From assembly GCF_003096835.1 (NCBI RefSeq), contig NZ_QENZ01000006.1, positions 1-54,775 on the forward strand: a DNA stretch of 54,775 nt. Reading direction: 5' to 3'. The stretch's first letter is position 1. Every line of letters begins with the position of its first letter. Positions 4,108 through 28,770 of the stretch are shown here, piece by piece. This stretch comes from Balneicella halophila. Its GTDB lineage: Bacteria > Bacteroidota > Bacteroidia > Bacteroidales > Balneicellaceae. The translations under genes were made by a program, and so were the position numbers. The notes beneath the pieces were generated by a model, which was not told the DNA's origin, searched no databases, and worked only from the letters and a program-made list of their open reading frames with translations.

Positions 4108-5112
4108 ATGGATTATTTTGAATCAAACTATGATTTCATACCATTAGAAGGTTATGAAGATTTTGAAGCTACTACTCAGTTAATTATTAAAGAACTGCTT
4201 AATAGAGATATTGAGTTTGAAGTCTTGAGTACTGCTCAGAATTTAATTGTAGTTTATCATGAAAATAAAGAATTTATCATTAAAGAAGGTACTATTTCTG
4301 ATGCAAACTCACTGATATCCTTTTGGATTTCAAATGATAAATGGTTAACAAAGTTATTTTTAAAAAGGGCTGGAGTAAATGTAGCTGAAGGACAGCTAAT
4401 AACTGACGAAAAATCTTTTGATAATTGTTCAATCGAATTTCCAGTTGTGGTAAAACCTAAAGATACTGACCACGGAATTGGTATTACAACTAATATTACA
4501 GACAAGGAGTCTTTTGAAAGAGCTGTTGCTAAAGCATTTCAATATGCTAATCAAGTTATTGTTGAAAGATATTTCACAGGAAGAGAATACCGCTTTTTAG
4601 TTGTTGAAAATGTGGTGAGGGCTGTTGCATATCGTATACCAGCTAATGTCGTAGGAGATGGTGAAAAGAACATTGGCGAACTTATAAAACAGAAAAATAA
4701 AAATAGAGGAAACGACTATCGCACTCCATTATTAAAATTAGAGGTTGATGATGAAGTGGAACGAGTACTGAAATCACAAAATTTGAATTTACATTCTATT
4801 CCTGATAAAAATACACTTGTTTCACTTCGAAATAATTCAAATCTAAGTACAGGAGGGGACAGTATTGACGTCACTGATGAAATGTCAGATTTCTATAAAG
4901 AGATTGCTGTTAAAGCAACTCAAGCTTCTGGTTTGAAAATAGCAGGAGTAGATATTATTATACAGAATATAGACGCAGAACCTTCTAAAACGAATCATAT
5001 TGTTGTGGAATTGAATGCACCCGCGATGCTCTCTATGCATTCCTATCCTTACAAAGGGAAAAATAGACAAGTAGAAAAATACGTGTTGGATGCAATCCTA
5101 AATTCAAAATAG
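4108..5112 (+). CDS. ATP-grasp glutathione synthetase, free-standing GshF-type domain
   Basis: This 334-residue ATP-grasp ligase resembles the C-terminal half of the bifunctional GshF (GshAB) enzyme, not classical GshB. Recognisable blocks are VVVKPKDTDHGIGI (ATP-binding lysine and loop), VERYFTGREYRF, RIPANVVGDGE, STGGDSIDVTDEM, and a metal-binding end (GVDIII and VELNAPAML). The expected reaction joins gamma-glutamylcysteine and glycine using ATP. The next gene, 44 bases downstream, is a glutamate-cysteine ligase, so the pair could make glutathione. Cyanophycin synthetase shares this fold, but the neighbour argues against that. The substrate is inferred from homology and context. Confidence 0.82.
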   Translation: MDYFESNYDFIPLEGYEDFEATTQLIIKELLNRDIEFEVLSTAQNLIVVYHENKEFIIKEGTISDANSLISFWISNDKWLTKLFLKRAGVNVAEGQLITDEKSFDNCSIEFPVVVKPKDTDHGIGITTNITDKESFERAVAKAFQYANQVIVERYFTGREYRFLVVENVVRAVAYRIPANVVGDGEKNIGELIKQKNKNRGNDYRTPLLKLEVDDEVERVLKSQNLNLHSIPDKNTLVSLRNNSNLSTGGDSIDVTDEMSDFYKEIAVKATQASGLKIAGVDIIIQNIDAEPSKTNHIVVELNAPAMLSMHSYPYKGKNRQVEKYVLDAILNSK

Positions 5113-5156
5113 TCGGTTAGGAATAATCTTTGTTATGTACGATAGAAAAGAAGTTA

Positions 5157-6488
5157 ATGAGCATATTGTCTAAAGAACAGTTGGTTTCCTACTTTGAAGA
5201 AGGGTGTACTCCAAAAGAAGCGTGGAAGGTTGGTGTAGAACACGAGAAGTTTTTATTTTATAAAGACAATCTTAAACGAGTTCAATATTATGGTGAGGAT
5301 GGCATTGAGATGTTGTTGAAGAAGTTTATTGAAAATGGATGGAAAGGTAAATATGAAATGGGTAATTTGCTGTCTGTTTCTAAAGGCAATAGTAATATTA
5401 CCCTAGAGCCTGGAGGACAGTTTGAGTTATCCGGAGCACCATTGACGACTGTTCATGATATTTCTCAGGAAACAAGGTCGCATTTTACCGAATTGAGCCA
5501 ACTAGCATCATCGCTCAATATGCAACCACTATGCTTAGGTTTTGATCCTATTTCTACAAGAGATGATATTTCATGGATTCCTAAGCAACGCTACAATATT
5601 ATGAGAAAACATATGGCTAACAAGGATATTCATGGATTGGATATGATGGGTCGTACTGCAACTATCCAAGTCAATCTGGATTATTCTAGTGAAGAGGATA
5701 TGCGTAAAAAAATGTACGTAGGTCAGTTCTTACAGCCACTTGTTATGGCACTCTTTGCCAATTCCCCATTTGTCGAAGGAAAAGATAGTAGATTTTATTC
5801 CTATCGATCGCACGTATGGAACTACACAGATATAGATCGTTGTGGATGTTTACCATTTGTGTTAGAGAAAGATTTTTCGTTTGAACGCTGGGTTGATTAT
5901 TTACTTCAAGTCCCCATGCTTTTTGTTACAAAAGATGATGTAACACAGCCAATTGACATGATGACTTTTGATGAATTTAGAAAAGGAAAATCTAAATTTG
6001 ATCCGACTATGGAAGACTGGGAAACGCATATCTCTACCGTTTTCCCTGATATTAGATTAAAGCGGTATATTGAAATGCGTGGTGCCGACGGTGGATGTTC
6101 TTGTTTTGTTACTGCCTTAGCTGCGTTTTGGGTGGGTTTATTGTATGATGAGGATGCTTTGGAAGAAATATATCAATATGTTAACGGTTTTGCCAATGAG
6201 GAATTTTTAGAATTGAGAGATTTAGTCGCTAAGAAAGCAATTCATTCAAAAATTAAAGGCAATTTACTTATTGAGGTTGCGAAACTTGTATTGGCAATTT
6301 CAAAAAGAGGATTAACCAATAGAGCAAAACAATTGAATATTGAGAGCGAGGCAGTATATTTAAAACCTTTGGAAGAAATAGTTGACACAGCGAAGACTCG
6401 TGCACAAGTACTTGTAGAGCAATTCAATAGCACTTGGAAGAATAATATTCAAAAAGTGTTTGACTCTTGCCAATGTAAGATGATATAA
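5157..6488 (+). CDS. gshA: Glutamate-cysteine ligase (GCS2 / plant-type GshA)
   Basis: This enzyme makes gamma-glutamylcysteine from glutamate, cysteine and ATP, the first step of glutathione synthesis. It belongs to the GCS2 family found in plants and many bacteria: the VGVEHEKFL block lies near the N-terminus, EPGGQFELSGAPL near residue 85, and IEMRGADGG in the second half. The open frame begins at a TTG at 5130, but the ATG at 5157, preceded by an A/G-rich stretch, gives the usual MSILSKEQLVSYF start. The result is 443 residues. The upstream ATP-grasp gene would provide the second step. A tRNA-Arg promoter follows directly. Confidence 0.9.
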   Translation: MSILSKEQLVSYFEEGCTPKEAWKVGVEHEKFLFYKDNLKRVQYYGEDGIEMLLKKFIENGWKGKYEMGNLLSVSKGNSNITLEPGGQFELSGAPLTTVHDISQETRSHFTELSQLASSLNMQPLCLGFDPISTRDDISWIPKQRYNIMRKHMANKDIHGLDMMGRTATIQVNLDYSSEEDMRKKMYVGQFLQPLVMALFANSPFVEGKDSRFYSYRSHVWNYTDIDRCGCLPFVLEKDFSFERWVDYLLQVPMLFVTKDDVTQPIDMMTFDEFRKGKSKFDPTMEDWETHISTVFPDIRLKRYIEMRGADGGCSCFVTALAAFWVGLLYDEDALEEIYQYVNGFANEEFLELRDLVAKKAIHSKIKGNLLIEVAKLVLAISKRGLTNRAKQLNIESEAVYLKPLEEIVDTAKTRAQVLVEQFNSTWKNNIQKVFDSCQCKMI

Positions 6489-6570: not shown

Positions 6571-6645
6571 GGTCCAGTAGCTCAGTTGGATTAGAGCAGC
6601 AGCCTTCTAAGCTGCGGGTCACAGGTTCGAGCCCTGTCTGGATCA
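6571..6645 (+). tRNA. tRNA-Arg (anticodon TCT)
   Basis: The cloverleaf can be read directly. The acceptor strands are GGTCCAG and CTGGATC, the D-loop is AGCTCAGTTGG, and the anticodon loop is CTTCTAA with anticodon TCT. The T-arm contains GGTTCGA. The CCA end is not encoded. A terminator follows at once. Confidence 0.95.
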
Positions 6646-6648
6646 CTC

Positions 6649-6686
6649 AAAAAGCCGTATCAATTTAAGGATACGGCTTTTTATTT
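6649..6686 (+). terminator. Terminator after tRNA-Arg
   Basis: A 13-bp stem (AAAAAGCCGTATC at 6649-6661 with GATACGGCTTTTT at 6670-6682) has an 8-base loop and ends in T-rich sequence. Confidence 0.88.
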
Positions 6687-6759
6687 ATCCAAAGTTTTGA
6701 AGAATGAATGTTGATAGGGTAGTTATTCAAATAATTACCTGGTATTTTATTTGATAATT

Positions 6760-6802
6760 TTTTTACACCTTTAAAGACCGTTTAACTTTAGAGGTGTAAA
6801 AA
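6760..6802. repeat. Long inverted repeat before the deletion scar
   Basis: TTTTTACACCTTTAAAG (6760-6776) pairs with CTTTAGAGGTGTAAAAA (6786-6802), 17 bp with one G-T pair, around a 9-base loop. It ends at the ATG of the cas6-like fragment. It could be a terminator-like hairpin or a leftover of the element that lay here. Confidence 0.65.
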
Positions 6803-6865
6803 ATGCGTATTAAATTGACTATCGATCATCTACCTAATCAAAAAATCCCCATTAATTATCAATAC
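6803..6865 (+). pseudogene. Possible cas6 5' remnant (about 21 codons)
   Basis: An ATG at 6803 opens a frame reading [12 protein letters not shown], then QKIPINYQY, before it runs into thiG sequence in another frame and stops at a TGA. A start of this kind (MR-K-L-T-, then PINYQY about 17 residues in) is typical of CRISPR-associated Cas6 endoribonucleases. I call it a remnant created by a deletion whose junction lies near 6861-6866. The fragment is short, so the assignment is tentative. No CRISPR array or other cas gene is seen in the window. Confidence 0.45.
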
Positions 6866-7013
6866 AGCCATTGCAGTGGCTTCTGATCCTGTAGCTATGG
6901 CTAAGGCGTTTGAGCAAGCCGTAATCGCTGGTAGAACAGCCTTTATTGCCCAATTAGCACCCGTGAGAGAGAAAGCAGAAGCAAGTAGTCCACTAACTTC
7001 ATTCTTAAAATAA
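6861..7013 (+). pseudogene. thiG: thiG 3' remnant (last 50 codons of thiazole synthase)
   Basis: The frame from 6861 reads [17 protein letters not shown], and after further sequence ends in SSPLTSFLK-stop. This matches the C-terminus of ThiG, the thiazole synthase of thiamine synthesis, whose proteins end in a similar NTAIA-VA-DP-AMA block and SSPL-GFL tail. The first ~200 residues, including the catalytic lysine, are missing, and there is no start of its own. thiH begins 6 bases after the stop, as in an intact thiGH operon. The truncation therefore came from a deletion of the upstream part of the operon. Confidence 0.85.
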
Positions 7014-7019
7014 CGAATT

Positions 7020-8135
7020 ATGGAAACATTTTCAGCAATTCATAAAGAATATGATTGGGAAGGGGAGCGAAAGCGAATCTATGCTAAAACGGAAGCAGAT
7101 GTGCTTACTGCACTTGCCAAAAAAAGAAAGAATTTAGATGATTTTCAAGCTTTAATTTCTCCCGCAGAACAGCCTTATTTGGAAGCTATGGCACAGCAAA
7201 GTGCTCTTTTGACCAAAAAACGCTTTGGGAATACGGTGCAGATTTATGCTCCGATGTATTTGAGTAATATTTGTACAAACCAATGTACTTATTGCGGTTT
7301 TAGTATTCAAAATAAAATTCCTCGTAAGATTTTATCCGAAGAAGAAGTTCGTATAGAGATGGAATACTTAAAGGCGAAAGGTTACGAACATATTTTATTG
7401 GTGACGGGAGAGGCAAATAAAATAGCGGGAGTAGATTATCTGGAGAAAACGATAGAAATAGCAAGAGCGTTATTTGCTAATGTAAGTATCGAAGTGCAAC
7501 CCTTGGAGACCAATGAATATAAAAGATTGGTCGATGCGGGTTTGTATGCCGTGATGGTGTATCAAGAGACCTATAATAAACACGAATATCCTAAGTATCA
7601 TTTGCGAGGCAAGAAAAGTGATTTTCATTATCGTTTGGAAGCTCCTGATAGAATGGGAATGGCTGGAATGCACAAAATAGGATTGGGAGCTTTGTTTGGC
7701 TTGGAAGATTGGCGAGCAGACAGTTTTTTTACCGCTTTGCATTTTAAATATTTACAGAAAAAATATTGGCAGACGAAGTTCTCGATGTCTTTTCCACGGT
7801 TGAGACCTCACGAAGGCGATGTGCAACCAAAGGTAGAAATGATGGATGCTGATTTAGTTCAGTTGATTTGTGCTTATCGTTTGCTGGACGAAGATTTGGA
7901 ACTATCTATTTCAACACGCGAGAGTGCAGATTTTAGAAATCACATCGTGCAGATGGGCGTTACGACTTTTAGTGCCGAATCTCGTACAAATCCTGGAGGC
8001 TATGCCGTAGCACCGGAGTCGCTAGAACAATTTTCTATAAATGATACACGTACAACTGCTGAGGTTAAGGAAACCTTGAAAACGCTTGGTAAAGAAGTCG
8101 TTTGGAAAGACTGGGAACATTTTCAACGTTGGTAA
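7020..8135 (+). CDS. thiH: 2-iminoacetate synthase (tyrosine lyase)
   Basis: This radical SAM enzyme cleaves tyrosine to dehydroglycine (2-iminoacetate) and p-cresol, feeding thiazole formation by ThiG. The iron-sulfur motif is Cys85-xxx-Cys89-xx-Cys92 (CTNQCTYCGF). Later blocks SFPRLRPHEGD and STRESADFRN, and the YAVAPESLEQFSI tail, are typical of ThiH. At 371 residues it is full length and looks intact. Its partner thiG just upstream is reduced to a fragment, so ThiH is useful only if another thiG exists elsewhere. A ThiF-like gene follows 3 bases downstream. Confidence 0.93.
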   Translation: METFSAIHKEYDWEGERKRIYAKTEADVLTALAKKRKNLDDFQALISPAEQPYLEAMAQQSALLTKKRFGNTVQIYAPMYLSNICTNQCTYCGFSIQNKIPRKILSEEEVRIEMEYLKAKGYEHILLVTGEANKIAGVDYLEKTIEIARALFANVSIEVQPLETNEYKRLVDAGLYAVMVYQETYNKHEYPKYHLRGKKSDFHYRLEAPDRMGMAGMHKIGLGALFGLEDWRADSFFTALHFKYLQKKYWQTKFSMSFPRLRPHEGDVQPKVEMMDADLVQLICAYRLLDEDLELSISTRESADFRNHIVQMGVTTFSAESRTNPGGYAVAPESLEQFSINDTRTTAEVKETLKTLGKEVVWKDWEHFQRW

Positions 8136-8138
8136 GTT

Positions 8139-8843
8139 ATGACAGTAGTAGAAAAAGAACGCTATTCTCGACAGATAGTGCTCTCTGAAATAGGAGAACA
8201 ATGGCAACTAAAATTGAAAAATGCTAAAGTTTTAGTTATAGGAGCAGGGGGATTAGGATGTCCTGTTTTGCAATACATAGTTGGTGCAGGAGTAGGAATT
8301 GTCGGCATTGTGGATAATGATGTAGTAAGTTTGAGCAATCTACCTCGGCAGATTCTTTACGGAAGCGATGATATCGGAAAACCAAAAGTGGAGGTTGCTA
8401 CAAAAAAACTCAAAGCCAATAATCCAAATTGTAAAATAATACCCTACATTGGTTTATTGAATGAAGAAAATGCAGATAAGCTTTTTTTTAAATACGATAT
8501 GATTGTCGATTGTACTGATAATTTTACTGCAAGATATTTAATTGATAAAACCGCATTAAAGCATAAAAAGATTTGGATTTATGGCTCTATTTTAGAATAT
8601 GCTGGACAAGTTAGTGTGTTTGCCGGAGCAAAAGGGCAATCGTACCGAGCCTTGTTTCCGGAGGAAGATGGCGTAAGACCTTCGGCAAGCAACTATGGAG
8701 TGTTAGGGGTTTTGCCAGGAATTATTGGTTGCTTACAGGCAAATGAAGTCTTGAAATGGATATTAGGATCAGAGAATAGTCTCTCAGGCAAATTGCTTAC
8801 TTATAATTTGAGAACGAATCAACAGCAAATTTTTGAGATATAA
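8139..8843 (+). CDS. thiF: ThiF/MoeB/HesA-family adenylyltransferase without zinc-site cysteines
   Basis: This is an E1-like enzyme expected to adenylate the C-terminus of a sulfur carrier such as ThiS. The Rossmann ATP site (VIGAGGLGCPVLQYI) lies near residues 32-46. It is followed by DNDVVSLSNLPRQILY and DCTDNFTARYLID. The second half departs from the family: where ThiF and MoeB have CYRCLFP this protein has SYRALFP, the Cys before GV(L/V)G is replaced (PSASNYGVLG), and there is no C-terminal CxxC. The zinc site and the ThiF active-site cysteine are therefore absent. It may only adenylate, or it may be decaying with the thi operon. Confidence 0.8.
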   Translation: MTVVEKERYSRQIVLSEIGEQWQLKLKNAKVLVIGAGGLGCPVLQYIVGAGVGIVGIVDNDVVSLSNLPRQILYGSDDIGKPKVEVATKKLKANNPNCKIIPYIGLLNEENADKLFFKYDMIVDCTDNFTARYLIDKTALKHKKIWIYGSILEYAGQVSVFAGAKGQSYRALFPEEDGVRPSASNYGVLGVLPGIIGCLQANEVLKWILGSENSLSGKLLTYNLRTNQQQIFEI

Positions 8844-20531: not shown

Positions 20532-20567
20532 AGTGCTTCATTCAAATAAGAATGAGGCACTTTTTTT
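20532..20567 (+). terminator. Terminator after mscL
   Basis: AGTGCTTCATT (20532-20542) pairs with AATGAGGCACT (20551-20561; one G-T pair), followed by seven T. It separates mscL from the convergent CLC channel. Confidence 0.88.
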
Positions 20568-22353
20568 ATCCATTTGAAATATCCATAAGAAGTTCCCGAT
20601 AAACAGAAAACATCTTTGATTTTGATACAAAACCATTATATTTCCCCCGGTCAACAACCGGTAAATTCCATGCATTTGAACGTTGAAACTTATCCATAAC
20701 CGTTTGCATAGTGTCTTCTATGAAGATTAGTTCATCGGGCATGGTTGTAATAGACTGTATAGTCGTGGAGTCATAGAGACTACTATCAAACATAATCTCT
20801 CTGATATCATCTATATAAACTACCCCTTTAAATTGTTCTTCTTCATCCACCACAGGAAATAGGTTGCGTGAGGAGTGCTCAATCGCATTGATGACATCGC
20901 GCAGTGTGCCATCATAATTGACTGTGATAAAATTTGTTTCTAGAACCTTATCCATTTGCATAAACATCAGAACGACTTTGTCCTTATTGTGTGTTATTAG
21001 CTTGCCTTGTAATCCTAATTCTACTGTATATACTGAGTATTTTAAGAAATACTTTGTAAAGCTAAATGAAATGGCAGCTGTTATCATTAGAGGTATGAAT
21101 AAATTATAACCACCAGTGAGCTCAGCAATCAAGAAAATAGCGGTAAGTGGTGCATGGAGAACTCCTGCTAGTAAACCACTCATCCCAACTAGAGTAAAAC
21201 AGCTCTCCGATACATGCATTTTCAAAAAAGGAAAGTTATTAATAATCTTGGCTAAAATATTTCCCATGATACTTCCCATAAACAGTGTAGGAGCAAAAAT
21301 TCCACCAACGCCACCTGCACCAAAAGTAATAGATGTAGCTATTACTTTAAAGAATACAAGTCCTGACAGGATAGCAATAACCAGCCAAATATTTTCAATA
21401 TCAGCATCAAAAAATGGAGACATTAATGCGGTAGCAGTTTCTCCTTTTATTAAATCATTGATGGTTTGAAACCCCTCACCATAGAGTGGGGGCATTATAT
21501 ACACTAGCGCTCCCAAGGCTAAGCCTCCAATGATAAGTCTCTCGATTTGAGTATTTATACGACGAAACATTTTATGTAACGTGTCATATGCTTTTGCAAA
21601 ATAAATAGAGCAAAGTCCTGCAATAATACCCAGAGCAATATAAAATGGAATCTCAGACACGAGAAATTCTTGACCAATGTAATAAGGCATAATACGCTCT
21701 GAACCAAAAAAGAAGTAAGAAGTTATGATTGCAGACACAGAAGCTAAAATTAAGGGTATCATAGAGACAAATGTAAGGTCAAGACTGAACACCTCAATAG
21801 CAAACAGGATACCCGCAATAGGTGCCTTGAAAATAGAAGACATTGTACCTGCTGCTGCACAACCTATCAATAATATTCGCGTGGATTGTTTTGTGTGAAA
21901 TAGGCGCGCTAAGTTGGATCCTACAGCAGCCCCAGTTGCACAAGTGGGTCCCTCTAAACCCACTGAACCGCCAAAACCCACAGTTATAGGAGCGGTAAGC
22001 ATACTCCCATACATTTGAAACTTATCCATAATTCCTTTTTTCTGAGATATAGCATACAGAGTAGAGGGAATACCATGACTTACTTTTTTCTTTATGATAT
22101 ATTTTAGAATTAAATAGACAATAAAACACCCAATCAACGGGAAGATGAAGTAAAAACCAATATAATAATTCTGAATAATACCCTCTCGTAATCGGGTTTG
22201 AATAAAAAAAGTAAGGTTCTTTAGAATAACAGCTACCATTCCAGAAGTAAACCCAACAACGATACTAAGAATAAGAACATACTGATGTTCTGTGAGGTGT
22301 TTTTGTCTTAGGTGAATAATCTGATCTATTATTCTTCTAAAAAAGCGTAGCAT
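20566..22353 (-). CDS. CLC-family chloride channel/transporter with CBS domains (copy 1)
   Basis: This 595-residue CLC protein has about ten or more membrane segments over residues 25-440 and two C-terminal CBS domains (about 460-590). CLC signatures are SHGIP, GSVGLEGPT (carrying the gating glutamate) and GGVGGIFAPTLFMG. A glutamate also stands at the internal proton-site region (FAIEVFSLDL), compatible with chloride/proton antiport, though this is not decisive. The CBS pair suggests control by a nucleotide ligand. A close paralogue lies immediately upstream on the same strand. The stop overlaps the mscL terminator region. Confidence 0.92.
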   Translation of the reverse strand: MLRFFRRIIDQIIHLRQKHLTEHQYVLILSIVVGFTSGMVAVILKNLTFFIQTRLREGIIQNYYIGFYFIFPLIGCFIVYLILKYIIKKKVSHGIPSTLYAISQKKGIMDKFQMYGSMLTAPITVGFGGSVGLEGPTCATGAAVGSNLARLFHTKQSTRILLIGCAAAGTMSSIFKAPIAGILFAIEVFSLDLTFVSMIPLILASVSAIITSYFFFGSERIMPYYIGQEFLVSEIPFYIALGIIAGLCSIYFAKAYDTLHKMFRRINTQIERLIIGGLALGALVYIMPPLYGEGFQTINDLIKGETATALMSPFFDADIENIWLVIAILSGLVFFKVIATSITFGAGGVGGIFAPTLFMGSIMGNILAKIINNFPFLKMHVSESCFTLVGMSGLLAGVLHAPLTAIFLIAELTGGYNLFIPLMITAAISFSFTKYFLKYSVYTVELGLQGKLITHNKDKVVLMFMQMDKVLETNFITVNYDGTLRDVINAIEHSSRNLFPVVDEEEQFKGVVYIDDIREIMFDSSLYDSTTIQSITTMPDELIFIEDTMQTVMDKFQRSNAWNLPVVDRGKYNGFVSKSKMFSVYRELLMDISNG

Positions 22354-22486
22354 ATTTGAGTCTAAATTATGTTGCCTTAAAGAATGTACTTAAAATCAAA
22401 GATACTATTTTTTAGCAACTTTCAATAATGGTAACAATCGACTGATTGTGCCACTTACCAGCCGACATTTGTTTGACCAGCTTTAA

Positions 22487-24274
22487 TTAGTCGTTAGTAA
22501 TATCTACGAGAAGTTTTCGGTAAACAGATAACATTTTAGATTTTGAAACAAAACCCACATATTTACCCATATCCACAACAGGAAGATTCCATGCATCAGA
22601 ACGTTGAAACTTATCCATAACCGTGGGCATGCTATCATCATAATAAATAATCTCTCCTGGCATAGTTGTCAGTGATGCAACAGTTGTTTTGTCATAGAGC
22701 TTACTATCAAACATCATTTCACGAACGTCATCTAAGAAAATAACTCCTTTAAATTTATTATCATCATCAACTACGGGATAAATATTACGTGATGAGTGTG
22801 CGATTACTTCCACTAAATCTCCTAACATAGCATCATAATTGATAGTGACAAAGTTCTTTTCTATTACCTTGTCCAGTTGCATAAACATTAATACTACTTT
22901 ATCCTTATTGTGAGTTACTAACTTCCCTTGTAGCCCAAGCTCAGCAGTATATACAGAATAATTGAGATAATATTTAGTGAGGCTGTAAGAGATTGCAGCA
23001 GTGAGCATTAGTGGTATAAATAAATTGTAGCCTCCTGTGAGTTCTGCAATAAGGAAGATTGCTGTAAGAGGTGCATGAAGGACACCTGCCATAAGACCAC
23101 CCATACCTACAAGTGTAAAACTGCTTTCGTGCACACTAAGGTTTAGATACGGAATATTGTTTATAATTTTTGCTATAGTATTTCCCATAATACTGCCCAT
23201 AAAGAGCACAGGAGCAAAAATACCACCCACACCACCGGCACCAAAGGTGATAGATGTTGCAATAATTTTCACAAAAACCAATCCTGAAAGCAACGCAATA
23301 ACCACCCATACATTTTCTAGGTTGAAATTAAATATTGGGGCAACTAGTGCTACTTCTGGATTTCCTTTTATGAGACTATTTATCATATTGAAGCCCTCAC
23401 CATATAACGGTGGCATGAAATAAACAATCACGCCTAATGCAAGCCCACCAATAATAAATCTTTCGACTGGCGTATTTATTCGGTTAAATATTCTATGTGT
23501 ATAATCATAGACTTTCGCAAAATATATAGAAACAAAGCCTGCTATTATTCCCAAAACTACGTAGTAGGGAAGATCTGCAACCATAAAATTCTCCTCTATA
23601 TGAAAGGGAATGATTCGTTCTGATCCAAAAAACATGAAAGAGGTAATAATGGCAGAAAGTGAGGCTAATAACAAAGGTACTAAAGACATCAGAGTTAGGT
23701 CTAAACTAAAAACCTCAATAGCAAATACGATAGCAGCTACCGGTGCCTTAAAAATAGATGAGAGCGCGCCGGCTGCGGCACATCCAATCAATAATGTGCG
23801 TGTATTTTGTTTGATTCTAAAAGCACTTGCCAAATTTGAACCAATGGCAGCTCCGGTAGCTACAGTAGGTCCCTCTAGCCCCACGGAACCGCCAAAACCA
23901 ATAGTTACTGGTGCCGTAAGAATACTACCATACATCTGGAATTTTTTCATTATACCTTTACGTTGCGAAATAGCATATAGTGTGGAAGGAATTCCGTGAC
24001 TTACTTTATGTTTGATGATGTATTTCATTATGAGATAAACCAGAAACAGACCTATAAGAGGAAATACAAAGTAAAAACCGATGTAATAATCTTGAATAAT
24101 CCCTTCACGTAGACGGTATTGAATAAAGTGAGTAAAATTTTTGAGAACAACAGCACCAAGTCCAGAAGTTAATCCCACCACAATACTGAGAATATAGATA
24201 AATTGACGTTCAGTCAAATTCTTCTGTCTCCATTCAATAAAAAATTCTAATAGCTTACTTAGTTTCTGTAGCAT
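22487..24274 (-). CDS. CLC-family chloride channel/transporter with CBS domains (copy 2)
   Basis: This is a second 595-residue CLC-CBS protein, exactly the same length as its downstream neighbour and clearly a tandem duplicate. Long blocks are shared, including SHGIPSTLYAISQ, the gating GSVGLEGPT, GGVGGIFAP, and a matching CBS tail. Differences are scattered and mostly conservative, so both copies look functional and the duplication is not recent. The genes are 133 bases apart. The upstream copy may be transcribed first with the TamB-like gene behind it on the same strand. Confidence 0.92.
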   Translation of the reverse strand: MLQKLSKLLEFFIEWRQKNLTERQFIYILSIVVGLTSGLGAVVLKNFTHFIQYRLREGIIQDYYIGFYFVFPLIGLFLVYLIMKYIIKHKVSHGIPSTLYAISQRKGIMKKFQMYGSILTAPVTIGFGGSVGLEGPTVATGAAIGSNLASAFRIKQNTRTLLIGCAAAGALSSIFKAPVAAIVFAIEVFSLDLTLMSLVPLLLASLSAIITSFMFFGSERIIPFHIEENFMVADLPYYVVLGIIAGFVSIYFAKVYDYTHRIFNRINTPVERFIIGGLALGVIVYFMPPLYGEGFNMINSLIKGNPEVALVAPIFNFNLENVWVVIALLSGLVFVKIIATSITFGAGGVGGIFAPVLFMGSIMGNTIAKIINNIPYLNLSVHESSFTLVGMGGLMAGVLHAPLTAIFLIAELTGGYNLFIPLMLTAAISYSLTKYYLNYSVYTAELGLQGKLVTHNKDKVVLMFMQLDKVIEKNFVTINYDAMLGDLVEVIAHSSRNIYPVVDDDNKFKGVIFLDDVREMMFDSKLYDKTTVASLTTMPGEIIYYDDSMPTVMDKFQRSDAWNLPVVDMGKYVGFVSKSKMLSVYRKLLVDITND

Positions 24275-24330: not shown

Positions 24331-27300
24331 TCATTTTTTACGTGATTTTTTATTCCATCCGAGTTTTTCTTTATATCGTTGTATGAGTTCTTTAAATGTA
24401 TTAAACTCTTCATTATAAACAATACCTACACCTTGTATATTTCTTTTGTTCTCATAATAATATAGATTGTCTTTTGCATGTGAAAATGCACGTAATTTAA
24501 GATTACCCTTTTTATTGAGTTTTATATCAAAGTCAATATCTCCAATAAAGTCATTAAATCTATTGGCTTCATCTTGAGACGAAAAACCGAAATTTCCAGA
24601 AATAATAACCCTGTCTTGCAATAATTCTGTAGAAATTGCTAATCCAAGTTCTTCTTGAGTCATGTCATCACCAGGCTTGTAGATGAATCCAATATTAACG
24701 TCATCACTAAATTGAGACAATATATTACTTATCTGCTGTGATAGAAGCTCGCTAGTTGTTGATGCTAATGCATTTGTATTGTTGTTTCCAGAGGCATTTG
24801 GATTATATTCAGGTACAGTGAATCTATTAAATATCAATAATGACAGCACCTGTTTTGTTATATCAGTAGTCTGGAGTGTAGCTTGTATATTCCCTTTTGT
24901 TGTATTGTCAAGATTTGGAAAATCAATCTCGAAGGTAAGTTTCGGATCTTCGAGCTGTCCTGTTATATGAGTTTTACAAACGACCAGTGTTTGTCGTTGT
25001 TTTACAGAATTATTATCTTGATTGAGTAGGGGTTGTAGGGATGTTTTTAGTTGATAAACTGCATCTAAATTCACGAAGGCTTTTTCTGGAGCACCATTCC
25101 ACTGTATAGTACCACCTTCGTTCAGAATAAATTTTTTATTTACGATTCCCTCTAACGAGTAGTAAAAACTACCTTGAGAAACCGTGTATTGTCCCATTAC
25201 ATATTGTTTGCCCTCTCTGTCCCTTCTTACGAATAAGTCTGCACTACCTTGTGATTTTAAAGTACTACCATTATTGGCTTCTAAAACTACTTGAATTTCG
25301 GAAGTTGGGTCTATACTGAAATCAACATTGAAAGAAATAGGACTTTTGGCTCCAGTTGGAATGAAAAGGATGTCGTTGCTTTCTAGGTATTTGATGCTGT
25401 CTGCCGGATTTATAAATGTAATAAATTCATTGTCAGATACTTCACTAGCACTTCCATAAGGGACTATAATTTTCGATCTGCTGTCGGTTGATACGTCTCC
25501 TCTTACAGAGATATGTGAAAAATCACCAGTAATATTCAAATCTGAAGTTATTTTAGCATCACCGTAGGCTAGAGGCTGATAGGAATCTCTTAGTACTCTA
25601 AAGTTTTCAGTAGTTAATTTTAGATCTATTTCAGAGTTATTATTCATACCTAGTAAGACTTTACCATTTAGGGTAGCTGTTTTCTCACGTTCGTCAAATA
25701 TTTTAAAATTTTCGAATAGCATTTGACTATTGTTTACCGTTATCGTTTCGTTCAGGTGATATGGTACACCTGTTTCAGTTATGGTAATGTTTGGAATATC
25801 AAAATTTAGTTTGCCATCAATAATAGGATTTTCTACGTTGCCTTTAGATGTAAGTTTCCCGTTTATTGTTCCCTCTATATTCGAAAGAAAATCATTAGTA
25901 AAAACTGAAAATAGTTTCAAGTCGAAATCATCTAAATTGAGAGCGTAATTTAGAGAATTATCATTCATTCCATATAGCCCATTTATAGTAAGTAGCTCCT
26001 TTTCTGCCAAGGTTAATGATCCTACAGTTTGTAGCGCTTGCTTTTCTCGAATCCAATCGGAATTGACATTTAGCATTCCAAAATTCTGATTCTCTACAAT
26101 GAGCTTTGGAATACGTAAATCGGAATCTAATGTATAGGCATCATCGTTTTGTTGGTATTTTACGTAGCCAGACATTTTTGCCGAGAGCTTTATATCATCA
26201 CTGACAAACATATTCCAAAGATATCCTGTTTCAAAAGCTTTGAGGTTAACATTCAGATAATCAGTCTTATTTTTAGACCAAAGTCCATCTACTTCAATTG
26301 ATTCTTTCTTATTTTTAATTTTAAATTCTTTGATTGCTATATTTGTACTATCTATTACTAGCTTAGATTCAGTGATAGACCATTTTTTATTATTTAAAGT
26401 AAATTTTGTTGGTGCTATCTTATTTTCAACCGAAATTTGTTTGTTATCTATTTCTTTTAATATAGATGATAAAGATATGCTCCCATCGTAGGGTAATCTT
26501 TTATCTCCCCAATGTATGTTTGTTGTCATTTGATTGTTTGCAACATTATTATCAAGAGTGAAAAATAGAATATTATAATCATCCGTGAGGTTTATTCTGC
26601 TTATTGTAAGTTTATTATTGAGTGTATGATCACCAGTAGCACTGAAATTTATTTTGTGAAAGGCTTTATCGCCGAATTTCAAATAATCAGCGTTAAAATT
26701 CAACTGCATTTTAGTAGAGTTTCCAAGTGTATAATATGCTGATAATATCGCATTTTCACTTAGTGCATAATCGTCATAAAACAAATTCAGGACTGGATTT
26801 ATATTTTTAAAATTAATTTTCACTTCACTGCTTTCGTCAATGTGTAGACTGTCAGCTAAATTTAAATACCCTACGTCAATGTAATTTGAAAGCAATCGCA
26901 TGGGCAATGTTGGAATTTCTGTTGTTTTAAAGTCGCCACTAAGATGAGCTTCAATGTACTCAGAATTGAGATATAATGTGCGATTATTTTCATTTAAGGA
27001 TGAAACAATACTGATAGTATCAGCTTGGAGTTTCCCTTTACTGTTTGCATAGGCAAAGTCATAAATGCGTATATCCCCTGTGGCATTATCAATATTTCCG
27101 CCATCTATATGAGATGTCACATTGAAGCTAACTGTAGCTAAACTGTCATGTGAAAGTCTGTTTAAGTTGAGTTTTGAAAGTCTTGCATGATCCAGAGCCA
27201 AGGAAAAGTTCATTTTGGGAATATCTTCATGGAGGTCTATATTCCCTTTGAAATCAAAAGTGATATGTTCATCATTCATTTTTACATTTCCATCGAATAT

Positions 27301-28770
27301 TTTATCAGCTAAAAGTCCATCAATCTTTATATTCTCATAACTATAATTATTGACCTCCAATTTATTGACGGTTCCTTCAATTTCCGCATAGCTATTATAA
27401 TTTTCATTAGCCATTGCATTGACGATATCTACGTTTAGTGAAATATCACCTAACATCTTATTTTCTAATAAATCGCCTATCTTGTAGTCTTCAGTGATTA
27501 TTTTTCCACTCAGTTCCAACTGCTTAGTTTTTGCAGTGGGCTTGATAGAAATATCCGTTTTAACGTTGCCATACGAACTGAAAAGCTGACCATAGAAAAC
27601 GAAATCAGAAAGAAAGCCTGTATATCGACCCTTAGCGGTAATAAGCCCCAATTTCTTAAATTTATCAGAAAAGGAAAGATGTCCATTTTCATAGTTGGGA
27701 ATACTGATTTTTTCTAAATCATTTAAAGTGGTCTGTAAGTGATTGATTTTGGCGTCAACAAAAGTTTCATCTACATTTGGCAAGCCGTTCATCGACAATT
27801 CTCCAACGAATTCGGTATTCTCATAAGTTTTTAGATGTAAGTCTTCACAGAGCATATTTTCCACAGTCCCTGTTATATGACCTGAACCAATGAGGGTTTC
27901 ATGATAGCCTTTCAAATTTTCGTTAAATATTGATATTTCATGTAGGTTAACTTTACTGTGATTAATCTTATAATCAATCATTACCGCACGAATAAAATTC
28001 TTCCAAGCCTTTGTCCCTGGAGTGTATGAGAAATTTAAGTACTCAGCGTCTAAACTGCTTTTTTGAGTGGCAATCTGCACATTATCCAGCCTAAGCAGAT
28101 CATTAGCTACCGTAAGTTCTGTAGTTGTTTCATAAACTCGAAACCCACTTTTCTCTTCACCAACTAAAGAGTCTATATTCATTTTGATGACACCGCCTAT
28201 TGTTCTTAGCCCATTAATAGCAGCATTGATATTAAAAAAATCGAGATCGTCGTAGTTCATTCCATAGGGGACATCCTGCTTTGCAATATCATAATACACA
28301 AACCGACCACTGTTGATAGTTGCGGTTCCAGAAGAAAAGAAGTAAGAAGTTGATACTTCCGTAGAATCGTGCTCATCATTTTCCAAAGCATCTAAAAAAG
28401 TGAATAAGTTCATCTCGTCACCGTAGTTGATGAGTTTGAGGTATGGATTCTCAATGTCAAGATCTCTTATACGGAAATTATTGCTCGATAGATTTATTCC
28501 AGCAATTTTAGCAGTAAGTTTATCCACATAGAGTAGCGTATCTTTATGGGTGTCTCGTATAAGAACATCTTTTACTTCTAAGTTATTAAAGAAAGAATAG
28601 TTGATTTTTCCGATTTTAATCTCTGAACCAGTCTTTTTTTCGATAGATTGAGCAAGGTTGCGGATAATAATAGTTTGTACTTTTTCATTGAATAATGAAA
28701 TAGATATACCAATAAATAGAAGTGAAACTACTCCTATGCTAATTAAGATTATTTTAGTCCCTTTTTTTAT
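24331..28770 (-). CDS. TamB/DUF490-domain envelope protein, start codon unclear
   Basis: This very large protein resembles TamB-like AsmA-related proteins that bridge the periplasm for lipid or protein export to the outer membrane. The end carries the TamB domain: a GSAD repeat region, ITGQLEDPKLTFEIDFPN, and LSLLIFNRF followed by a beta-rich tail. No ATG exists at the expected N-terminus. The first usual start in frame, a GTG at 28527, would give 1,398 residues and drop the membrane anchor. The same frame continues upstream without a stop to about 28857, encoding an anchor helix (KIILISIGVVSLLFIGISI). I extend it to an ATA at 28770, where an ATG would be expected. Confidence 0.78.
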   Translation of the reverse strand: MKKGTKIILISIGVVSLLFIGISISLFNEKVQTIIIRNLAQSIEKKTGSEIKIGKINYSFFNNLEVKDVLIRDTHKDTLLYVDKLTAKIAGINLSSNNFRIRDLDIENPYLKLINYGDEMNLFTFLDALENDEHDSTEVSTSYFFSSGTATINSGRFVYYDIAKQDVPYGMNYDDLDFFNINAAINGLRTIGGVIKMNIDSLVGEEKSGFRVYETTTELTVANDLLRLDNVQIATQKSSLDAEYLNFSYTPGTKAWKNFIRAVMIDYKINHSKVNLHEISIFNENLKGYHETLIGSGHITGTVENMLCEDLHLKTYENTEFVGELSMNGLPNVDETFVDAKINHLQTTLNDLEKISIPNYENGHLSFSDKFKKLGLITAKGRYTGFLSDFVFYGQLFSSYGNVKTDISIKPTAKTKQLELSGKIITEDYKIGDLLENKMLGDISLNVDIVNAMANENYNSYAEIEGTVNKLEVNNYSYENIKIDGLLADKIFDGNVKMNDEHITFDFKGNIDLHEDIPKMNFSLALDHARLSKLNLNRLSHDSLATVSFNVTSHIDGGNIDNATGDIRIYDFAYANSKGKLQADTISIVSSLNENNRTLYLNSEYIEAHLSGDFKTTEIPTLPMRLLSNYIDVGYLNLADSLHIDESSEVKINFKNINPVLNLFYDDYALSENAILSAYYTLGNSTKMQLNFNADYLKFGDKAFHKINFSATGDHTLNNKLTISRINLTDDYNILFFTLDNNVANNQMTTNIHWGDKRLPYDGSISLSSILKEIDNKQISVENKIAPTKFTLNNKKWSITESKLVIDSTNIAIKEFKIKNKKESIEVDGLWSKNKTDYLNVNLKAFETGYLWNMFVSDDIKLSAKMSGYVKYQQNDDAYTLDSDLRIPKLIVENQNFGMLNVNSDWIREKQALQTVGSLTLAEKELLTINGLYGMNDNSLNYALNLDDFDLKLFSVFTNDFLSNIEGTINGKLTSKGNVENPIIDGKLNFDIPNITITETGVPYHLNETITVNNSQMLFENFKIFDEREKTATLNGKVLLGMNNNSEIDLKLTTENFRVLRDSYQPLAYGDAKITSDLNITGDFSHISVRGDVSTDSRSKIIVPYGSASEVSDNEFITFINPADSIKYLESNDILFIPTGAKSPISFNVDFSIDPTSEIQVVLEANNGSTLKSQGSADLFVRRDREGKQYVMGQYTVSQGSFYYSLEGIVNKKFILNEGGTIQWNGAPEKAFVNLDAVYQLKTSLQPLLNQDNNSVKQRQTLVVCKTHITGQLEDPKLTFEIDFPNLDNTTKGNIQATLQTTDITKQVLSLLIFNRFTVPEYNPNASGNNNTNALASTTSELLSQQISNILSQFSDDVNIGFIYKPGDDMTQEELGLAISTELLQDRVIISGNFGFSSQDEANRFNDFIGDIDFDIKLNKKGNLKLRAFSHAKDNLYYYENKRNIQGVGIVYNEEFNTFKELIQRYKEKLGWNKKSRKK

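Follow-up and report, generated by a model that had tools for sequence, protein, structure and literature searches.

The DNA analyzed here (the window) comprises 54,775 nucleotides of Balneicella halophila and makes up the whole of contig C6 in a draft genome of 2,089,523 bases (2.09 Mb) in 11 contigs; at 98.2% completeness a little may be missing from the assembly, and the absences reported below apply to the draft. The 59 genomes supplied as relatives are of the same order but all belong to other families (none is from the same genus or family), so that the undeleted arrangement was not seen. Between a tRNA-Arg gene (TCT; 6571..6646, plus strand; identified by ARAGORN), which is the last intact gene ahead of the scar described below, and the ATG of thiH at 7020, the sequence runs through an AT-rich stretch and an inverted repeat to an ATG at 6803, and then to the end of thiG. 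A separate, perfect inverted repeat of 13 bp (6649-6661 / 6670-6682) lies just after the tRNA. The chimera that a preliminary description had proposed for this interval is present where it was placed, with both of its halves beyond chance: the first 21 codons of cas6 (6803..6865, plus strand) run into the 3' end of thiG, 50 codons plus the stop (6861..7013, plus strand), and the two are out of frame with each other. At the scar the tRNA alone reaches its Rfam gathering score, a plasmid DNA search returned no match, and no CRISPR array was seen in the window.

Two other gene pairs of the window may be recorded here. At 4108-6488, an ATP-grasp gene with glutathione-synthetase-type matches below cut-off adjoins a glutamate-cysteine ligase gene that matches TIGR01436 (glu_cys_lig_pln) above cut-off. 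At 20566-24274, two neighbouring genes encode ClC chloride channels of 595 aa with CBS domains; the pair, matching at 72% over 300 nt, looks like a tandem duplication and adjoins a TamB gene (24331-28527).

The frame that begins MRIKLTID and reads on to PINYQY starts at 6803 and stops at 6884-6886, 27 codons in all. Assignment of its first 21 codons to cas6 (Cas6b-like) is based on the PADLOC Cas6b model and on alignment with 30 Cas6 N-termini. The model matches the 21-residue peptide with E 0.0019, residues 1-21 falling on model positions 1-21, and matches none of eight scrambled peptides. For the alignment, Cas6 was found by TIGR01877 in 74 of 295 genomes of the order, from which 30 loci were supplied and all 30 used. 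The N-termini of many of these relatives resemble MRFKL...LPINYQYELSSWIYK, and many share the motif MRxKL...(I/L)P(I/L)NYQY; the peptide has this conserved stretch (as MRxKL...LPINYQY) in register from residue 1, and its alignment ends at the point where ThiG begins. Averaged over the 30 same-order Cas6 proteins, its local BLOSUM62 score is 44.4, compared with 21.6 for shuffled peptides (n=1000; sd 1.3, maximum 28.7) and 22.0 for reversed targets; it also ranks first among the 764 stop-free ATG-started 21-mers on both strands of the window (runner-up 26.1). Among the 30 Cas6 loci, the score is 23 for L125, 28 for L124, and 31 for both L100 and L101. The cas6 start named in the preliminary description is thereby supported, and a gene stub of 21 residues proves identifiable if it is anchored to the start codon and tested against relatives. 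For the Cas6 body past residue 21 (200 positions of TIGR01877) the genome contains no match to TIGR01877 or PF10040, and no other Cas6 was found in it by either model; because of this, and because the frame ends after 27 codons, the cas6 piece is a gene fragment and not a Cas6.

The other half of the chimera matches positions 201-247 of the Pfam ThiG profile, PF05690, with E 9.7e-13 in a genome scan and E 8.2e-11 in a second Pfam search. The C-terminal end of ThiG (NTAIA ... SSPLTSFL) is present, its stop at 7011-7013 lying six bases ahead of the thiH ATG, and the first 200 of the 247 Pfam positions, which we take to include the active site, are missing. No full ThiG occurs in the genome, in which the tail itself is the sole match above cut-off (others, E 0.044 and 0.16). 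The tail departs at none of 23 near-invariant columns of 99 relatives and is thus undecayed. A full thiG elsewhere, combined with no Cas6 hit for the N-terminal segment, had been named as the outcome that would speak against a fusion; what was found is the reverse on both counts.

The boundary between the two halves can be placed closely. The residues preceding NTAIA are (V/I)L(V/I) in 80 of 80 loci of genome-contig relatives and DA(V/C)L(V/I) in all 19 order-mate loci with thiG, whereas the window reads SPLII, which is cas6 sequence read in the thiG frame; ThiG homology therefore starts at 6861 (AAT). Cas6 homology runs to TAC, ending at 6865, leaving an overlap of five bases, AATAC (6861..6865), that fits both parents (Gln-Tyr of Cas6 and Asn-Thr of ThiG) and agrees with the junction near 6861-6866 proposed earlier. 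To judge from the sequence, such an overlap is as at an illegitimate junction of microhomology size; the true microhomology may be shorter than five bases owing to third-codon freedom, or may reach seven bases, supposing that the missing thiG codon read GTC, as it does in some relatives.

Downstream of the junction, thiH (2-iminoacetate synthase; 7020..8135, plus strand) is intact, as had been described, and matches TIGR02351 with E 3.9e-159 and 529.6 bits (cut-off 380). It is followed, as in the thi operons of relatives, by an intact frame for a thiF/moeB-like adenylyltransferase (8139..8843, plus strand) recognized by ThiF and MoeB models of NCBIfam, of which those listed fall below their cut-offs (TIGR02356, 209.5 bits, cut-off 275.25). 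Among 20 order-mate thiH loci, several of which end at contig ends, thiG lies upstream of thiH in 19 (with thiC between them in two), and 16 also show thiC, thiE or thiD. By gene order, then, the thiG tail, thiH and thiF of the window look like the end of a thi operon.

Sequence comparison shows no clear decay of ThiH, whose named relatives are Bacteroidota. With 20 order-mates added to 80 relatives, and near-invariant columns taken as those conserved at 97% or more, ThiH of the window, measured against all 100 sequences, differs at 4 of 133 such columns, and the order-mates, each left out in turn and measured against the other 99, depart at 0-7 of 122-125 columns (n=20). The 80 genome-contig relatives alone had given departures at 20 of 168 invariant columns, and at 65 of 244 Flavobacterium-invariant columns compared with 30-48 in six non-Flavobacterium sequences, an apparent sign of decay that was dropped after the order-mates were added. 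The order-mate result was followed because distance from Flavobacterium can explain the other. An undecayed ThiH agrees with either a fairly recent loss or a ThiH still in use, and gives no date; the recent loss suggested in the preliminary description is compatible with it. The absence of a ThiF cysteine was also dropped as a sign of decay, as it looks like a lineage trait. This cysteine is present in 79 of 79 genome-contig ThiF relatives (79 of 80 loci were matched) and absent in the window; among the 14 order-mate matches listed it occupies the aligned place in two (L182 and L192), the other 12 being without it. How sulfur reaches ThiS in these bacteria is a question raised by a ThiF-like protein (8139-8843) that has no such cysteine.

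When thiC, thiE and thiG were sought genome-wide, no ThiC was found in the genome (seven of the eight other genomes of that search have one), nor any TMP-TENI match to ThiE above cut-off (best E 0.068). These upstream thiamine genes are thus gone from the draft, as had been claimed, and with thiC, thiE and a full thiG all absent the genome does not have the de novo thiamine pathway as defined by these three genes. A TPP riboswitch, at 63.4 bits above its gathering score of 54.3, is present on the minus strand of another contig (C3:682870-682969, corresponding to L142:7870-7969). About 40 bases past it is encoded a TonB-receptor-like protein of 803 aa (TIGR01786, E 5.8e-14, below cut-off), likely the product of a thiamine uptake gene, and thiamine pyrophosphokinase is found above cut-off (E 8.2e-27). 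Because a TPP riboswitch precedes a TonB-type receptor and the kinase is present, the genome probably imports thiamine.

The preliminary description had any CRISPR locus disappearing together with cas6. The absence of the rest of cas6 from the whole genome bears out part of that claim, but CRISPR was not lost altogether, as a type II locus remains on contig C5 (L141:5285-12561, about 237285-244561). It encodes a Cas9 of 1400 aa (TIGR01865, 493 bits), the single Cas1 of the genome (295 aa), and an ORF of 112 aa at the place of Cas2, putative by position; its array has 22 identical repeats of 49 nt plus one degenerate copy, and 22 spacers of 29-30 nt. This Cas1 belongs to type II, scoring 297 bits with cas1_NMENI (above cut-off) and 45.9 with the type I model cas1_HMARI, far below the cut-off of 304.1, so that no type I cas1 was found. 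To our knowledge type II systems do not use Cas6; the cas6 stub therefore belonged to another system. The type I-B genes cas8b, cas7, cas5 and cas3 do not lie beside it, the 21 codons being followed by the thiG tail, thiH and thiF; over the rest of the genome the check for type I-B covered Cas6 and Cas1. Six of eight chosen relatives' cas6 loci were scanned, and in all six Cas8b is the best match of a large ORF after cas6, directly in L202, L203 and L205 and after one or two intervening ORFs in L198, L199 and L201; in L202, cas7, cas5 and cas3 come after Cas8b. Because Cas8b follows cas6 in all six, the lost system was probably type I-B, the likeliest subtype.

Just upstream of the stub lies the inverted repeat already mentioned (6759-6776 / 6786-6803), which had been described as 17 bp long and ending at the cas6 ATG. 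Its arms are in fact 18 nt each, 9 nt apart and 94% complementary, and the 3' arm does end on the A of that ATG. Folded as RNA it reaches -19.6 kcal/mol (z -6.12), a value equalled by none of 200 shuffles. It may possibly represent an operator or a translational hairpin of the lost cas operon, and AGAGGTG within the 3' arm could act in translation initiation. A regulator site common to cas6 genes was considered and rejected: in 30 relatives, the best inverted repeats within 100 bases upstream of the inferred start of cas6 (mononucleotide shuffles as control) do not match that of the window, L123 and L124 carrying strong but different ones. The exact half-site occurs nowhere else in the genome; allowing one mismatch gives two further genome copies, compared with four for a reversed control pattern, and allowing up to three gives 12 half-sites in the window, compared with 11.0 by chance. 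Since the deletion, thiH and thiF lie behind the region of this repeat.

Taken together, these observations make it very probable that the locus is a deletion scar joining the start of cas6 to the end of thiG, and that cas genes and upstream thiamine genes were deleted, with dependence on thiamine uptake as the outcome; in its core the preliminary interpretation is right. The ancestor would have carried a Cas6-using CRISPR-Cas operon, probably of type I-B and opening with, or close to, cas6. This operon would have lain between tRNA-Arg and a thi operon whose last genes were thiG, thiH and thiF; that the two operons were neighbours on the same strand we infer from the junction. On the simplest account, they would then have recombined illegitimately at a short shared sequence (AATAC, 6861-6865), in a step that was the only or the last one, so that codon 21 of cas6 now meets the final 50 codons of thiG and everything between them is gone. 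Such a deletion may have been selected, or tolerated, in a small genome. The cell would have become unable to make thiamine from scratch and dependent on uptake, with thiH and thiF as presumed leftovers, now behind the region upstream of cas6.

Deletion in one event, as the preliminary description had it, cannot be shown because a junction records the last event only, and neither can prior adjacency of cas6 and thi. One Cas6 query against the 20 order-mate thi loci gave no match at E below 1e-8; among the matches listed, cas6 and thiH share a contig in at least three genomes (G164, G258 and G291), at distances, read by eye, of at least about 278 kb. The cas and thi genes could have been lost independently in successive steps, an inversion or insertion sequence perhaps intervening, with the junction as no more than the last cut. 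This possibility, which we hold tentatively and which overlaps the reading just given, differing from it in the number of steps (so that belief in one does not subtract from the other), gains from the B. fragilis arrangement discussed below, in which the thi operon appears to face the cas locus, a neighbourhood that need not yield a fusion by one simple deletion (PMC5704556, as its loci are listed). It is weakened by the clean overlap, by the undecayed ThiG tail and ThiH, and by the fact that between tRNA-Arg and thiH no other cas or thi remnant was noticed among the families searched. Self-targeting is quite improbable as the cause: a Cascade-Cas3 guided by a self-targeting spacer would have cut the neighbourhood, and healing by microhomology would have removed the cas and thiamine genes, much as microhomology deletions are reported in mutant Haloferax strains under type I-B self-targeting (PMC7521656). 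If true, autoimmunity would have made the cell a vitamin auxotroph while its type II system stayed. A match of the type II spacers to thi or cas genes was considered and rejected: all 22 were compared with the window and with the fetched loci (L141 being left out, and hits in L139, which overlaps the array, set aside), giving seven 15-nt matches at E 0.033, none in the window.

That the junction is an assembly chimera of two unrelated places in the genome is very unlikely, even for a draft of 11 contigs, as neither a full cas6 nor a full thiG was found elsewhere in the assembly and a real loss is consistent with thiC and thiE being missing there too; moreover, an overlap of 5 bases is shorter than those on which assemblers normally join. 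We give hardly any credence to the notion that thiG alone was truncated, the 21 codons having arisen by chance or encoding a leader peptide without relation to Cas6. The peptide is short, and on its own found no match in four other searches (Pfam, NCBIfam, PDB and plasmid tblastn), but its score stands far outside those of shuffles and of the window's other ATG-started 21-mers (763), and its alignment starts at residue 1, in register with the Cas6 motif, and stops where ThiG begins.

The deletion scar is ordinary gene loss, well preserved, and as a natural deletion is of modest general interest. Loss of a CRISPR type or of thiamine synthesis would singly be unremarkable; here the junction links the loss of one CRISPR type with the loss of thiamine synthesis, which turns collateral loss of a vitamin pathway alongside a defence locus into a concrete, testable idea. 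Among the titles listed from the open-licence literature, none concerns a cas6-thiG junction.

The nearest known parallel is in Bacteroides fragilis, in which the thi operon is listed eight genes away from a type I-B cas locus, beyond the array (PMC5704556, Figure 3A legend). From the listed order, this thi operon seems to point towards the cas genes (PMC5704556; with the operon order taken from B. thetaiotaomicron, PMC5613172). Type I-B loci that are truncated, according to the authors probably by a single deletion event, are reported for B. fragilis (PMC5704556, in the account of these loci), and the two cases share partial loss of a type I-B operon with another CRISPR type kept (there II-C or III-B); cas6 is listed first in B. 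fragilis (PMC5704556, as above). The truncated loci are a parallel and not the same locus. In B. fragilis the deletion is internal to the cas operon and spares cas6, cas2 and portions of cas1 and cas5; as listed, the thi genes are present and the flanking genes differ from those here (PMC5704556). In B. halophila no more than 21 codons are left of cas6, and thiG is truncated. As to the thiamine side, B. thetaiotaomicron becomes auxotrophic once its thiamine biosynthetic operon is deleted (PMC5613172, as summarized there). That deletion was engineered and took the whole operon (PMC5613172), whereas the present one is natural and left thiH and thiF. B. thetaiotaomicron, too, has a TonB-dependent transporter under control of a TPP riboswitch (PMC5613172), and this outer-membrane route of thiamine uptake in Bacteroidetes is one that B. 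halophila probably shares.
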